In this document: positions 3,001 to 63,273 of the stretch, one piece after another | Layout: every line of letters starts with the position of its first letter | Position numbering within the stretch: the stretch's first letter is position 1 | Source: Tenacibaculum sp. AHE14PA | Lineage (GTDB): Bacteria; Bacteroidota; Bacteroidia; Flavobacteriales; Flavobacteriaceae | DNA length: 64,000 bases | NCBI RefSeq assembly: GCF_019278465.1 | Contig: NZ_CP058983.1 | Span: forward strand, 2,169,501 to 2,233,500 | Direction: 5' to 3' | The notes under the pieces: generated by a model | The model's database searches: none | The model's input: the letters and a program-made list of their open reading frames with translations, nothing else | What the model was told of the DNA's origin: nothing | Translations under genes and position numbers: made by a program

Positions 3001-5565
3001 TTAAAATTTAACTTTTAAACCTAAACTAAATGTTCTACCTGCACCATAGTACACTAAAGAATCATCTACAGTGTGAGAACTACCGTCTCTTGCATCAGAA
3101 ATATATTCTGTATTGAAGATGTTGTTTAATTTTCCTGATAAGGTAGAATCAAAATCTCCTATAGTAAAACCGTGAGAGAATCCTAAGTCAAATAAATGAA
3201 AGTTAGGTAACTGCCAAGTATCTTCTCTATCACTAGGGTTTGTTCTTCTAACTACATCCATAGTAGCATAGTTATCACCTGCATAGTTATAATCTACAAA
3301 GAAAGAAGTTCTTTGTGCTGCTTTATAGTTTAAACCTAAAGCCCAAGTTGTTTGTGCAGCATCTGACACTTTTAAACCGTCTGCATAAATATTAGTTTGG
3401 CTCACGAAATTTCCCGCTCCATCAAAAAGATCACCTGATGCATCACTTGTCCAGTTCCAGTCTCCTAAAGAAACCATACCTGTAAGTTTTAAATTATCAG
3501 TCATTTTATAAATAAAATCTAATTCAACACCTTGGTGTAATGCATCTAATCCTGTTACGTTAGCTACAGGAATCTGTCCTGAAATAGGATCTGGTTGTCC
3601 AGAAACAACTCTTGATCTATCTAACCAAGAAGTTCTATACACATTTAAATTTGCTGATAACTTTTCACTTCTAAACCCGTATCCAACTTCTGCTGAAAAT
3701 ACTTTTTCGTTTACAGCATCTTCATTTATACTACCTGACTCTCTTCTTGAAAAAACACTTGCTGCTAAAAAAGGTGCTCTAGAGAAATATCCTACATTAG
3801 CAAAAACATTATGATTTGCATCGATGTTATAATTTGCCCCTCCTTTAATACTATATCCTAAAAAGCTAACATCATCAGAATCTCTACCATTTGGATTTAA
3901 AGCATCATTTAAGTTGTTAGTTTTGTTATATTCTGTGTTAGACATAGATGACGCTAAGAATAAAGACAAGTCATTTTTAGAATACTCTAACTGTGCAAAA
4001 TAACCATATCTTAAAACTCTACCTACGTAATCGTATCTTAAACGATCACCTACTTCTAAGGCTTCACCAAAATTATTAGTGTTGTTGTATTCGTTAATAT
4101 AAAAATCTCCTCCTAATAAATCAGCAACTTCATAATAATGAATACCTTCATAATATCTACCATCTAAACCTCCTGAAAAAGTTAACTCGTCTGTTAAATC
4201 AGTTTTAAAAGTAGACAATACTCCGTACCAGTTATGGTTGTTTACTGAGTTTAAGAAAACATCTGAAGAACCTTGTGTACCTCTTGTTTTATTTTCATCA
4301 ACAATTTTATCATAATCAATTGGGCTATCAAAACCTCCTAGCCTGTATTCATCTTGACCAACACCAAAAGCAAACTTAGATGAACCTGGATTTGATCTTC
4401 TACCACCACCTTTACCAAATGATGTATATAATACTGTAGTTAAAAATGTTTTATCAGAAATAACCCAATCATAATTTAAAGAAATCTGTGGTTTATGATA
4501 ATAATTAAAAGAACTATTTTCAATTTGTCCATTTCTGTAACCCCAATCTGGATTAAATCTTTTCCCACCTCTTTCAGTAGCTCTGTTTACAGCCACAGTA
4601 GTTCTATTAAATCTTTGTCCGTGCTCTTGTTGCGCTCCAAAAACTGTAAAAGAAAGCTTGTGATTATCATTAAATTTTTTAGCTACGTTTAAGAAATAAT
4701 TAAACCCATCAAACCATAAACCATCTACATAACCATCACCTTTAATAGTAGCTGCAGATGCTGTAATAGCCAATCCGTTCTCCATTAAACCTGTTGATAA
4801 TGTCATTCCGTATTTTTGATAACCGTCATTAGCTGTTGAAGCTCTTACCATACCTCCTTTTTCAGCGTCAGTAGATTTTGAAAGAATGTTAATTGTACCC
4901 CCAACAGAAGGAACAGCTACTTTAGAAGCACCTAAACCTCTTTGAACTTGCATTGCAGATGTAACATCTGATAAACCAGCCCAGTTAGACCAATATACGT
5001 TTCCGTTCTCCATATCATTAACAGGAACCCCATTAATCATTACGGCAACGTTCTGAGATCTAAACCCACGTAAGTTAATTCTTGAATCTCCGTATCCCCC
5101 ACCTTGTTTAGTTGCGTATACACCTGGAGTTGATTTTAAAATCTCAGGAAATTCCTGAGTTCCTAATTTCGCTTCAATTTCTGATGCTTTAATTGTAGAT
5201 ACTGCTACTGGAGTTTTTCTATCAACAGCAAAAGATGTTGCTGTTACTACTATTTCGCTTAAAACATTTGAAGGTTCTAACTCAATAGAGCCTAAATTTA
5301 TTTTTGAAGCTGAATAAGCTACTTCTTTATTGTTGTACCCTATAAAAGATAATACAACAGTACCTGAAGTAGATTTAGCGTTTAACATAAACTTACCGTC
5401 AAAATCTGTTGCCGTTCCGTTTGATGTTCCTTTAACTACAACTCCAGCTCCTGGTAATGGCTCTCCCATTTCGTCAACAACTGTACCTGTTAGTTTAGTT
5501 TGCCCTAAAACAGTAGCTGTTACAATGAACAGTGCTACTAGTAAAACATTTTTAAAATTTTTCAT
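3001..5565 (-). CDS. TonB-dependent receptor with carboxypeptidase-regulatory-like N-terminal domain
   Basis: An outer-membrane active transporter of 854 residues. A signal peptide is followed by a CarboxypepD_reg-like domain (TKLTGTVVDEMGEPLPGAGV, roughly 23-105). Next come a plug domain (roughly 115-230, with ESQN-type segments such as INLRGFRSQNVAVMINGVPV) and a large beta barrel ending in FSLGLKVKF with a terminal aromatic. It has no SusC-type partner SusD; instead a repeat-bearing lipoprotein follows. The ATG at 5565 fits a normal signal peptide. Inverted and direct repeats upstream suggest specific regulation. The ligand cannot be read from the sequence. Confidence 0.92.
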   Translation of the reverse strand: MKNFKNVLLVALFIVTATVLGQTKLTGTVVDEMGEPLPGAGVVVKGTSNGTATDFDGKFMLNAKSTSGTVVLSFIGYNNKEVAYSASKINLGSIELEPSNVLSEIVVTATSFAVDRKTPVAVSTIKASEIEAKLGTQEFPEILKSTPGVYATKQGGGYGDSRINLRGFRSQNVAVMINGVPVNDMENGNVYWSNWAGLSDVTSAMQVQRGLGASKVAVPSVGGTINILSKSTDAEKGGMVRASTANDGYQKYGMTLSTGLMENGLAITASAATIKGDGYVDGLWFDGFNYFLNVAKKFNDNHKLSFTVFGAQQEHGQRFNRTTVAVNRATERGGKRFNPDWGYRNGQIENSSFNYYHKPQISLNYDWVISDKTFLTTVLYTSFGKGGGRRSNPGSSKFAFGVGQDEYRLGGFDSPIDYDKIVDENKTRGTQGSSDVFLNSVNNHNWYGVLSTFKTDLTDELTFSGGLDGRYYEGIHYYEVADLLGGDFYINEYNNTNNFGEALEVGDRLRYDYVGRVLRYGYFAQLEYSKNDLSLFLASSMSNTEYNKTNNLNDALNPNGRDSDDVSFLGYSIKGGANYNIDANHNVFANVGYFSRAPFLAASVFSRRESGSINEDAVNEKVFSAEVGYGFRSEKLSANLNVYRTSWLDRSRVVSGQPDPISGQIPVANVTGLDALHQGVELDFIYKMTDNLKLTGMVSLGDWNWTSDASGDLFDGAGNFVSQTNIYADGLKVSDAAQTTWALGLNYKAAQRTSFFVDYNYAGDNYATMDVVRRTNPSDREDTWQLPNFHLFDLGFSHGFTIGDFDSTLSGKLNNIFNTEYISDARDGSSHTVDDSLVYYGAGRTFSLGLKVKF

Positions 5566-60584: not shown

Positions 60585-61823
60585 ATGATTTCTGTAAAAG
60601 AAGCTAAACATCTAATTTCACAAAGCACTCAAGATTTCGGTACAGAAGAAATTCCGTTTATAGAATCTGTAGGTAGAATTTTAAAAGAAGATATTATTGC
60701 CGATAGAGATTTCCCGCCTTTTAATCGCGTTGCTATGGACGGAATTGCAATAAATCATTCTTATTTTAAAAACGGGCAACGAAGTTTTAAAGCAGAAGCA
60801 ATTCAGCCAGCCGGCAGCAAGCAATTATCTATGCAAAATTCAGAAAATTGTATAGAAGTAATGACTGGCGCCGTATTACCTAATAACTGTGATACCGTAA
60901 TTCGTTATGAAGATATTGAAATAGAAAACGGAATTGCAAGAATTACTGTTGATGTTATAAACAAACATCAAAACATCCATCCAAAGGGAAAAGACAAAGC
61001 ACAAGGAATTGTTTTAATTAACAAAAACACTATTATTTCTCCTGCTGAAATCGGTGTGATTGCTACTGTAGGTAAATCGACTATTAAAGTAGCCAAACAA
61101 CCGAAAGTAATGATTATTTCTACTGGTGATGAATTAGTTGATGTGCATGAAACTCCTTTAAATTATCAAATAAGAAAATCTAATGTATATACGTTGGTTT
61201 CGTTATTAAATGAACTGAACATTCCTTCTAAAACAGCACATATTACTGATAATAAAACTATCTTAAAAGAAAAGATTGCTGGCTACCTGCAAGAATATGA
61301 CGTGCTTTTATTTAGCGGAGCGGTGAGTAAAGGTAAATTCGATTTTTTACCCGAGGTGTTAACTGAATTAGGAGTAAACAAGTTGTTTCATAAAGTAACT
61401 CAACGCCCAGGGAAACCTTTCTGGTTCGGCCTCACAGATGCTTTAGGTATTAATGAGCAACATGTTTCCGTGAATGAAAAAAACAAAACAGTTGTCTTTG
61501 CTTTTCCTGGAAATCCGGTTTCTACTTTTGTAAACTGTTTAGTTTATTTTTATCCTTGGTATTATAAATCAGCAGGTATAAAAGCAAATGAAAAAACAGC
61601 TATCTTAGCTCATGATATTGAATTTAAACCTAATTTAACTTATTTTTTACAAGTAAAATTAAGTTATCGTTTTGGGCATTTAATTGCAACTCCTATAAAA
61701 GGAAATGGTTCTGGAGATTTAGCAAGTTTAGTTGCTGCTGATGGTTTTATTGAAATTCCGAAAACAACACAAATTGAATTTAAATCAGGAAGTACTTTTC
61801 CTGTAATTAGATATAAAAAATAA
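60585..61823 (+). CDS. moeA: molybdopterin molybdenumtransferase
   Basis: 412 residues inserting molybdate into adenylated molybdopterin. ADRDFPPFNRVAMDGIAINH is the MoeA start region; IISTGDELVDVHETPLNYQI, FSGAVSKGKFDFLPEVL and VFAFPGNPVSTFVNC are domain III motifs. The last 26 codons (from 61742) duplicate a sequence found just before moaC. The intact ORF therefore uses the proximal copy and ends in TAA instead of the TGA seen in the distal copy. Confidence 0.95.
   Translation: MISVKEAKHLISQSTQDFGTEEIPFIESVGRILKEDIIADRDFPPFNRVAMDGIAINHSYFKNGQRSFKAEAIQPAGSKQLSMQNSENCIEVMTGAVLPNNCDTVIRYEDIEIENGIARITVDVINKHQNIHPKGKDKAQGIVLINKNTIISPAEIGVIATVGKSTIKVAKQPKVMIISTGDELVDVHETPLNYQIRKSNVYTLVSLLNELNIPSKTAHITDNKTILKEKIAGYLQEYDVLLFSGAVSKGKFDFLPEVLTELGVNKLFHKVTQRPGKPFWFGLTDALGINEQHVSVNEKNKTVVFAFPGNPVSTFVNCLVYFYPWYYKSAGIKANEKTAILAHDIEFKPNLTYFLQVKLSYRFGHLIATPIKGNGSGDLASLVAADGFIEIPKTTQIEFKSGSTFPVIRYKK
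61742..61821 (+). repeat. 80-bp direct repeat, proximal copy (moeA 3' end)
   Basis: It encodes GFIEIPKTTQIEFKSGSTFP plus VIRYKK. It matches 62719-62798 at 78 of 80 positions; the two changes give Ile/Val and Arg/Lys differences. Confidence 0.97.
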
Positions 61824-62335
61824 AATCTCGATACTAATTTGTTTTTACTATCGGACATCAAACTCACTCGATATGACAATACTATTCGTTTATTTTATTA
61901 AATTCAACCTGTCTTTTCGAGTGGTTTTATTAAAGTGACAATGGAAATAAAAGTGTATCGAGAACTATTATACAATCAACATAAATAATAATGGAAATTG
62001 TCAGTTCGAGTGGTTTTATTGAAGTGATAATGGAAATAAAAGTGTATCGAGAACTATTATACAATCAACATCTCGATACAAATTTGTTTTTCCTATCGGA
62101 CATCAAATTCACTCGATGTGACAATATAAATTGTCAGTTCGAGTAGTTTTATTGAAATGATAATGGAAATAAAAGTGTATCGAGAACTATTATATAATCA
62201 ACATTTCGATACAAATTTGTTTTTCCTATCGGACATCAAATTCACTCGATGTGACAATATAAATTGTCTGTTCGAGTAGTTTTATTGAAATGACAATGGA
62301 AATAAAAGTGTATCGAGAACTATTATACAATCAAT
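61824..62335. repeat. tandem array of palindromic repeats (133-bp unit)
   Basis: The phrase GTATCGAGAACTATTATACA recurs at about 61954, 62043, 62176 and 62309; the last two full units are 133 bp each and about 129/133 identical. Each unit is an imperfect palindrome with outer arms TCTCGATAC/GTATCGAGA and inner arms CACTCGATGTGACAA/TTGTCAGTTCGAGT. Each unit ends with the sequence that forms the leader of the GIY-YIG gene. Confidence 0.9.
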
Positions 62336-62626
62336 ATGAAAATCTATTATGTTTACATCTTAAAATGTTCTGACAAATCATATTATACTGGTTTTACTTC
62401 TAACCTTGAAGAAAGATTAATGGAACATAAAGAAGGAAAACACATAGGTAGTTATACGTTTAAAAGAAGACCTTTAAAATTAGTTTTTTATTGTGAGTTT
62501 ACAAATGTAGCATTAGCGATTGCAAAAGAAAAACAACTAAAAAATTGGTCAAAAATTAAAAAAGAGGCTTTAATAAATGGTGCTTTTGAAAATCTTCCTA
62601 ATTTAGCAAAGAAGAAGTTTAAATAA
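62336..62626 (+). CDS. GIY-YIG nuclease family protein (UPF0213/URI type)
   Basis: 96 residues: MKIYYVYILKCSDKSYYTGF carries the GIY (YVY) and YIG (YTG) elements. The catalytic Arg is probably in LEERLMEHKEGKH, and RRPLKLVFYCEF with KEKQLKNWSKIKKEALI follows. It is a single-domain nuclease of the kind dispersed in many copies in flavobacterial genomes. The ATG abuts the last tandem repeat, and CTCGATAC palindromes follow the stop. It probably drives or accompanies mobility of the cassette (inference). Confidence 0.92.
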   Translation: MKIYYVYILKCSDKSYYTGFTSNLEERLMEHKEGKHIGSYTFKRRPLKLVFYCEFTNVALAIAKEKQLKNWSKIKKEALINGAFENLPNLAKKKFK

Positions 62627-62718
62627 CTTCTCGATACAATTTTCTCATAAAATCGAAAATTACTCGAAGTGACACTATCATATTAAAATGAAATAACAAT
62701 TCAACATGTCAGTTCGAT

Positions 62719-62798
62719 TGGTTTTATTGAAGTTCCGAAAACAACACAAATTGAATTTAAATCAGGAAGTACTTTTCCTGTAATTAAATATAAAAAAT
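62719..62798 (+). repeat. 80-bp direct repeat, distal copy (ancestral moeA end)
   Basis: It encodes GFIEVPKTTQIEFKSGSTFP plus VIKYKK and then TGA, which overlaps the moaC ATG as ATGA (62797-62800). This is the arrangement expected before the insertion. Confidence 0.95.
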
Positions 62799-63273
62799 GA
62801 ACAAATTCACGCACATAAACGAGCAGAATCAACCTAAAATGGTGAATGTTTCTGATAAGAAAATTACCAAGCGAACTGCGGTTGCAAAAGCTACGATGTT
62901 TTTAGGAGCTGAAATTATTTCTCATTTTAAAAATGAGGACTTAATTACTAAAAAAGGACCCGTTTTTCAAACCGCAATTATTGCTGGCATTCAAGCTGTA
63001 AAAAAAACATCTGATATTATTCCTATGTGTCATCCGTTATTAATTAACGGTGTAGATATTGATATAAATATTGTTGACGATGAACAATTAGAGGTTTTTT
63101 GTAAAGTAACTATCGAAGGAAAAACAGGTGTTGAAATGGAAGCTTTAACGGGCGCTTCTGCAACTTGTTTAACTATTTATGATATGTGCAAAGCCATCAA
63201 TCAAAAAATGGTGATTAAAGAAGTAAAATTAGTAGAAAAAACTGGCGGTAAATCAGATATTAAAAATGGGTAA
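62797..63273 (+). CDS. moaC: cyclic pyranopterin monophosphate synthase
   Basis: 158 residues; converts the MoaA product to cPMP. MVNVSDKKITKRTAVAKATM begins the conserved core, with PMCHPLLINGVDIDI and EALTGASATCLTIYDMCKA holding active-site residues. The ATG at 62797 overlaps a remnant moeA stop. It overlaps the next gene by 8 bp. Confidence 0.95.
   Translation: MNKFTHINEQNQPKMVNVSDKKITKRTAVAKATMFLGAEIISHFKNEDLITKKGPVFQTAIIAGIQAVKKTSDIIPMCHPLLINGVDIDINIVDDEQLEVFCKVTIEGKTGVEMEALTGASATCLTIYDMCKAINQKMVIKEVKLVEKTGGKSDIKNG

Follow-up and report, generated by a model that had tools for sequence, protein, structure and literature searches.

A second copy of the moeA gene end beside a GIY-YIG nuclease cassette of Tenacibaculum, and a possible pairing of small GIY-YIG nucleases with palindrome classes

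The moeA-moaC locus

We analyzed a stretch of 64,000 nucleotides from Tenacibaculum sp. AHE14PA (contig NZ_CP058983.1, positions 2,169,501 to 2,233,500; referred to here as the window), whose genome is a single contig of 2.82 Mb. In the window the genes moeA and moaC are separated by a cassette consisting of a small GIY-YIG nuclease gene and the palindromes around it, and beyond this cassette, against moaC, lies a second copy of the moeA 3' end (Table 1). An earlier note on this DNA had attributed this tail copy to the insertion of the cassette. Comparison with other genomes points to a different order of events, in which the cassette was resident first and its last palindrome arm may later have been rewritten from moeA, and to a wider candidate association between small GIY-YIG nucleases and palindromes in flavobacteria.

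The gene identities were upheld by domain matches (the N, middle and C domains of MoeA, a GIY-YIG domain and MoaC), with the nuclease belonging to the GIY-YIG superfamily on the basis of its match to PF01541 at 62.3 bits, against a cut-off of 22.6. Clade A and class A in Table 1 refer to the groupings of nucleases and palindromes described below. The first two of the 133-bp class-A units (61990-62388), situated upstream of the GIY-YIG gene, are 95% alike, and the third (62256), which is 68% alike, extends into the gene. The likeness of the first two suggests that the unit was amplified here recently.

Table 1. Features between the start of moeA and the end of moaC (positions in the window)
Feature	Position	Strand	Remarks
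moeA	60585..61823	+	412 codons, intact, ends in TAA
Proximal repeat copy (native moeA 3' end)	61742..61821	+	
Left-hand palindrome arm	61826..61878	+	directly 3' of moeA
Class-A palindrome units	61990..62388	+	133-bp period; copies at 61990, 62123, 62256
GIY-YIG nuclease gene	62336..62626	+	96 aa, clade A
Right-hand palindrome pair, first arm	62628..62674	+	from sequence and alignment
Spacer separating the right-hand arms	62673..62706	+	
Right-hand second arm, start only	62707..62731	+	cut short; last 13 bases TGGTTTTATTGAA = 62719-62731
Distal moeA-tail copy	62719..62798	+	78/80; mismatches at 62732 and 62787
moaC	62797..63273	+	start overlaps the distal copy's TGA (ATGA)

The 80-bp repeat and its junction

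The repeat itself is as the earlier note had described it. The segments 61742-61821 and 62719-62798 are identical at 78 of 80 positions without gaps, their starts are 977 bp apart, and the segment between them, put at about 897 bp, measures 897 bp. As claimed, the proximal copy completes moeA with a TAA at 61823, and the distal copy reads on in the moeA frame as far as a TGA overlapping the ATG of moaC (ATGA, 62797-62800). The open part of this distal frame begins at 62687 and contains no ATG, GTG or TTG. A 12-bp match between moeA and the cassette's own palindrome had been proposed as the junction, and such a shared block does exist, although its length is 13 bp (TGGTTTTATTGAA). No exact match between moeA and a palindrome arm of the cassette is longer, and nearly all chance versions fall short of it: arm matches stayed below 13 bases in 300 Markov-1 versions of the complete moeA (mean 8.6, maximum 12), and among 300 further versions, cut to the last 150 moeA bases, one reached 13 (mean 6.9).

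Comparisons within the genus were based on 166 genomes, including that of the window. Loci are designated L and genomes G; among those cited below, L039 is from G092, L040 from G080 (Tenacibaculum ovolyticum DSM 18103), L100 from G113 and L105 from G124, while L069, L070 and L072 represent T. finnmarkense and T. dicentrarchi. The two copies are identical at positions 15-68 of the repeat and differ at position 14 (A in the proximal and G in the distal copy) and position 69 (G and A, respectively). At position 14 the distal G is that of the palindrome form GAAGT found at 62014 in the same cassette, the other arms of which read GAAAT at this site, and the nine other rows in the window's 10-row clade of the moeA+moaC tree have A in their moeA tails in eight cases and C in L097. 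At position 69 the distal A also occurs upstream of moaC in L071 and L072 (TTAAATATAAAAAAT), and the moeA tails of all nine other rows have G. Both mismatches would fit a copied tract bounded by short shared blocks, with the position-69 base being suggestive.

The block at the other end of such a tract would be ATATAAAAAAT, a second short match, which lies before moaC and is present in L097 without the long copy. A short match to the moeA end before moaC, again without the long copy, occurs in L097 (CATATAAAAAATGAAC), L040 and L070-L072, and the return point of the tract would therefore have been supplied. Short remnants resembling the moeA end were seen before moaC in L040, L070-L072, L076, L082, L084 and L097; these may go back to the first insertion or to copies that have since eroded.

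Age of the cassette

The GIY-YIG tree groups the window's gene with that of T. ovolyticum (G080) and those of a T. finnmarkense/T. dicentrarchi set, all of which occupy the same site, with support values of 93/91 that fall just under the tool's star and with the bootstrap unsettled. Because the tree joins the window with these same-site relatives, the gene was probably at moeA-moaC before the window lineage split off. The right-hand palindrome bears on the same point. We searched the 166 genomes with a 70-bp stretch across the right-hand spacer, scoring the five best candidates per genome, and the only whole-length matches outside the window were in G124 (E 7e-15) and G080 (E 5e-10), both adjoining moaC. 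Matches in G163, G120 and G021 and at a second place in G000 began only at base 20-29, that is, in the palindrome-arm part of the stretch. The spacer (62673-62706) is nearly the same in L105 and has a shorter form in L040; in both loci the second arm goes on as an ordinary palindrome, after which comes GATATAAAAATTAAATGAAC. In the window the second arm halts after TGGTTTTATTGAAG and the moeA tail follows. As the spacer was matched only at moeA-moaC, in two relatives with the full palindrome, the right-hand palindrome was inherited, and the second half of its second arm was later overwritten by moeA sequence joined at TGGTTTTATTGAA, the block that moeA and the palindrome share.

Junctions across the genus

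Both genes were present at 137 scorable junctions, six loci without both having been dropped (L042, L069, L109, L158, L161, and L192). A GIY-YIG gene of the window's kind, or a remnant of one, was found at 29 of the 137, a count that includes L159, with a 58% relative, and L053 and L098, where short remnants lie. The remaining junctions have palindromes only (8), another insert (52), or nothing or a gap of at most 45 bp (48), and moeA and moaC overlap in 39 of the 137. The long moeA-tail copy was found in the window alone, whether counted among all 137 junctions or among the 95 with a gap of more than 25 bp. Weak tail matches in L049, L117 and L132 (scores 19, 19 and 21, with shuffle maxima of 15, 16 and 18) were rejected as gapped and unlike a copied tail end, and a match in L081 was dismissed as being made up of palindromes. 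The earlier note had anticipated that relatives lacking the cassette would show a single tail with the ATGA overlap. A fused ATGA junction is seen in L100. The relatives that carry the cassette or palindromes are without the long tail copy.

On the moeA+moaC tree, presence of the gene requires 27 changes over its 29 rows, close to the mean of 26.8 for shuffled labels, so that turnover at this junction is fast. The four junction states require 59 changes, compared to 66.6 for shuffled labels, with a value as low in 2 of 200 shuffles, indicating some clustering. Within the window's 10-row clade, five rows have the gene, three have palindromes only and two have nothing. The junction is a site occupied by turns, at which close species differ, across the 137 genomes. 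Among the 52 other inserts, 26 encode one protein, presumably of the four-helix bundle type, 16 hold other frames (some of them far-strand frames or moeA pieces), and 10 are without a 60-codon frame.

Duplications around other GIY-YIG cassettes

One scan of 172 GIY-YIG loci (153 distinct) gave 477 direct repeats in 112 of the 172, which were rejected as duplications since they are largely palindrome arrays. Repeats without class words in L198, L199, L213, L219, L224, L229, L233, L248, L249, L281, L289, L297, and L298 were judged by eye to be array spacers, unlisted palindrome variants or tandem gene copies; a second GIY-YIG gene is present in L224 and L248. Another scan, for repeats of at least 35 bp (L319, which has no left flank, was left out), retained 24 loci, of which all but the window, L080 and L327 were read as palindrome pairs or their spacers. 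In 71 of the 172 loci the flank was no longer than 710 bp, so that distant copies would escape.

By this reading, flanking duplications of mostly non-palindrome sequence occur at 3 of the 153 distinct loci, namely the window (80 bp), L327 (102 bp) and L080 (159 bp), a pattern that differs from the fixed-length direct repeats expected at most copies of a transposon. In L327, from a Flavobacterium metagenome assembly, the 3' end of a Fic gene is copied (2410-2511 and 3383-3484, 95%), and the extra Fic tail is on the far side of the cassette, adjoining an HNH gene. The layout is that of the window (a gene with its native tail, the cassette, and an extra tail beside the next gene), in support of that part of the earlier note, and the inner end of the copy is about 25 bases from a palindrome arm. 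In L080 (a reversed locus, near a gene that we take to be phoA) the segments 576-734 and 2007-2165 are 98.7% identical, both start at the palindrome head TCAGTTCGAG, and the duplication surrounds the GIY-YIG gene and is without a long frame inside. The same note had held that its claim would fail if other cassettes were without flanking duplications. This is the case for 150 of the 153 loci, a figure to be read with the expectation that old copies erode and with the many short flanks in mind. The duplication in the window is not unique, but either such events are rare or their traces fade.

Origin of the tail copy

The explanation that we favor, to which we give roughly an even chance, is that the tail copy is a later overwriting of the resident cassette's last arm by copying from moeA, in the window lineage only. 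The GIY-YIG gene and its own class of palindrome would have been between moeA and moaC since before the near relatives split. Synthesis would have stalled or broken at the hairpin-forming last arm before moaC, copying (or recombination) would have crossed from the arm into moeA at the 13-base block, and the tract, covering about the last 66 moeA bases, would have returned to native sequence at ATATAAAAAAT, the outcome being a moeA-tail tract with the moaC start kept and moeA whole. This explanation builds on the inherited right-hand palindrome, the 13-base block and the absence of a copy from the relatives read, all of which are observed; we infer that the cell's own moeA, about 900 bp upstream, served as template, by a template switch within one molecule at the hairpin-forming arm. 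Relative to shuffles, three folded stretches (one arm, the two-arm unit and the right end of L040) had z values of -2.5, -3.5 and -2.2, with 5, 0 and 7 of 200 shuffles, respectively, folding as stably. The duplication is a secondary rearrangement and modest in itself.

Several points weigh against this explanation. The return point is short and A-rich, and the base at position 69 is not diagnostic alone, the corresponding site before moaC being G in L040 and L105 and C in L097. The fork of the 10-row clade has a support of 87, unstarred. At the left border a class-A arm is also present in L039, L040, L105, L070, and L071, but the window's left-hand arm is slightly closer to its own internal arms (score 42) than to those of the relatives (40 at most), and we dropped this border as proof of inheritance, the case for which comes down there to position and one base. 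In L327 the block that the copied Fic tail has in common with the palindromes at its inner end is about 8-9 bases. Lastly, the window's species is represented by one strain, and a cassette-less allele is a possible donor. Such an allele is central to an explanation that we consider possible but somewhat unlikely, namely that a cassette allele recombined with a fused moeA-moaC allele, the crossover using the 13-base block on one side and ordinary moaC homology on the other. The distal tail would then derive from the fused allele, and the sequence would be accounted for equally. Fused junctions are common in the genus, as the 39 overlapping pairs indicate, and within the window's own clade the two genes overlap by ATGA in L100 too and are 4 bp apart in L043. 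The end of the distal copy is identical in form to a fused junction, and since the gene's presence changes about as at random on the tree, alleles with and without it plausibly coexist. However, the sister row L039, as well as L097, L040 and L105, all have palindromes between the two genes, and the donor required was not seen.

The proposal of the earlier note, that the tail was duplicated as the cassette split moeA from moaC, would amount to a very long target-site duplication of about 80 bp, and we consider it very improbable. The cassette does appear to be mobile, as 9 of the best 30 genus loci of window-type GIY-YIG genes are away from moeA-moaC (the other 21 are at this junction, one of them on a contig that holds moaC only), with neighbors that we assume from their translations to be rsmI, mfd, a flotillin-like gene and phoA. 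In G063 the intact copy near phoA (L080) is sister to a broken copy at moeA-moaC (99/68), which is the best sign of movement of the GIY-YIG gene. The duplications at L327, of a gene 3' end, and L080, starting at a palindrome head, also flank cassettes, and the short moeA-end remnants before moaC at several cassette loci may be what erosion has left of longer copies. Against this, the cassette and its right-hand palindrome are older than the copy in the window lineage, relatives with the same junction are without the long copy, duplications vary widely in length and are absent from nearly all the loci counted, and one end of the window's copy is inside a palindrome arm, not at an arm edge. For the window, duplication at insertion is contradicted by the inherited spacer, and we rejected it on this ground and on that of the GIY-YIG tree. 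A further proposal, compatible with the later overwriting that we favor and adding a trigger to it, is that cleavage by the GIY-YIG nuclease in or close to the palindrome left a break for which moeA served as the repair template, with the copy as a by-product. We offer this tentatively, as less than probable: all three duplications end at or near a palindrome arm (about 25 bases away in L327) and the clades of the nuclease match palindrome classes, but replication can stall at palindromes with no nuclease involved.

GIY-YIG clades and palindrome classes

The window's own genome has three small GIY-YIG genes (one a short frame), each amid a different palindrome family. To relate genes and palindromes we added 60 further loci from the genus and defined nine sets by eye on a tree with many weak forks, using 91 of 92 loci (L242 was left out). 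The best-word statistic was 0.917, compared to a mean of 0.31 and a maximum of 0.40 for shuffled labels (200 shuffles, which redo the choice of words but not the drawing of the sets, whose rows are related and in some cases from the same site). For five sets the words and counts are as follows: TCTCGATACA for set A (30/30 inside, 3/61 outside), GCGCAGTCGA for B (17/17, 0/74), TCATGCTGAA for C (11/11, 0/80), CTTCGACAAG for D (8/8, 0/83) and AGATTACTTC for H (6/6, 0/85). Set F and a B-like set each have a word in 3/3 loci inside and 1/88 outside, and E (5/10) and G (2/3) are weaker, both with none outside. The classes overlap in part, as F and H have GTCATTGCGA in common and two E loci have the B-like word. 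Palindrome families seen by clade in L193, L194 and L195-L254 include the CTCGACTGCGCTCGAG, TGAACTTGTTTCA, CTTCGACAAGCTCAG, and GTCATTGCGA types.

Besides moeA-moaC, set A occupies four other kinds of place in the genus (as judged from the translations of the neighboring genes) and further places in other genera, with the same palindromes. The window's protein led to 80 loci in named genomes, 19 of which duplicate loci of the genus set. In 73 of the 80, TTCTCGATAC is within 500 bp, the seven exceptions being six Chryseobacterium loci and one from Arenibacter; 14 of the 80 adjoin moeA or moaC. Arms were scored at 90 of the 91 distinct clade-A loci (the flank of L319 was too short). The left arm faces the gene in 58 and has the other sense in 10, the right arm does so in 66 as opposed to 24, and both arms are inverted in 51 of the 90 by the word test, so this arrangement is not a feature of every locus.

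The number of palindromes is also related to the gene. Genomes with the gene (37) have a median of 14 copies of TGTCAGTTCGAGTG, and those without it (129) a median of 1 (Mann-Whitney p 7e-14, uncorrected for relatedness and genome completeness; presence was taken at E about 1e-33 or better, and G041 and G077, which have remnants, were placed among the genomes without). There are exceptions, with 33 copies in G036, which is without the gene, and one copy in each of G146 and G163, which have it. Many class-A palindromes, with no clade-A gene among the matches listed, were seen in G036 (33), G008 (28), and G119 (26), for which recent gene loss is possible. In G121 (C1:1996460-1998045) one long and several partial GIY-YIG matches stand in a row, some with stops, in what looks like local amplification and decay.

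We put forward, with a confidence that falls a little short of even, that small GIY-YIG nucleases spread and maintain palindromes like the repetitive extragenic palindromic (REP) elements in flavobacteria, one class per clade, in the way that REP-associated tyrosine transposases (RAYTs), which are unrelated enzymes, do elsewhere in bacteria, and that gene-tail copies are scars of this activity. Such scars would form where breaks or stalls at an arm are repaired from a neighboring gene via a chance match. If this is true, a second, unrelated nuclease family would be matched clade by clade to palindrome classes, and the REP mode of life would have had more than one origin. The pairing of nuclease and palindrome would make palindrome spread in flavobacteria directly testable.

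Comparison with known systems

REP palindromes are common in bacteria and, to our knowledge, RAYTs are the one mobilising enzyme family known for them. The REP-RAYT system is described as a gene flanked by palindromes that are matched to it by class and whose copy number is tied to the gene (Nunvar et al., 2010; PMC2817692). The flavobacterial cassettes are similar in having a single small nuclease-like gene between inverted palindromes, gene types matched to palindrome classes, and many extra palindromes in the genome whose number is linked to the presence of the gene. They differ in their enzyme, which is GIY-YIG rather than HUH/Y1. The product (PF01541) is not a member of the RAYT enzyme family, and PF01797 (Y1 transposase) had no match in the window's own genome, a control being positive in E. 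coli and four other genomes. Among the literature matches listed, we found none linking GIY-YIG genes to REP palindromes, subscription papers being mostly outside reach. PMC9465073 has both terms but, in the part available, treats them separately; in the text searched, "palindrom" is absent from PMC1564403 and "nuclease" from PMC12306157. The partnership, which we did not find described in these matches, merits follow-up.

The cassettes also resemble free-standing GIY-YIG homing endonucleases (on homing, see PMC1564403) in their GIY-YIG domain and in the recurrence of the gene at one intergenic site that is empty in close relatives. Unlike in homing, no intron or intein was seen, the same clade is present at other sites and in other genera, and nearly all copies carry palindromes; our comparison draws on the presence/absence pattern. 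Microhomology-mediated template switching, or break-induced replication, is a general mechanism to which the tail copy is similar in its non-reciprocal tract and the short shared blocks at both ends, the difference being that here it is proposed from sequence alone. In a different way, prophage e14 in icd brings a replacement gene tail by site-specific integration. There, as here, the host gene is left intact and its tail is present twice, but in the window the native tail is retained and the additional copy adjoins the next gene. For the tail copy both a direction and its order with respect to the cassette can be given, and it shows how an arm can be rewritten from a host gene.

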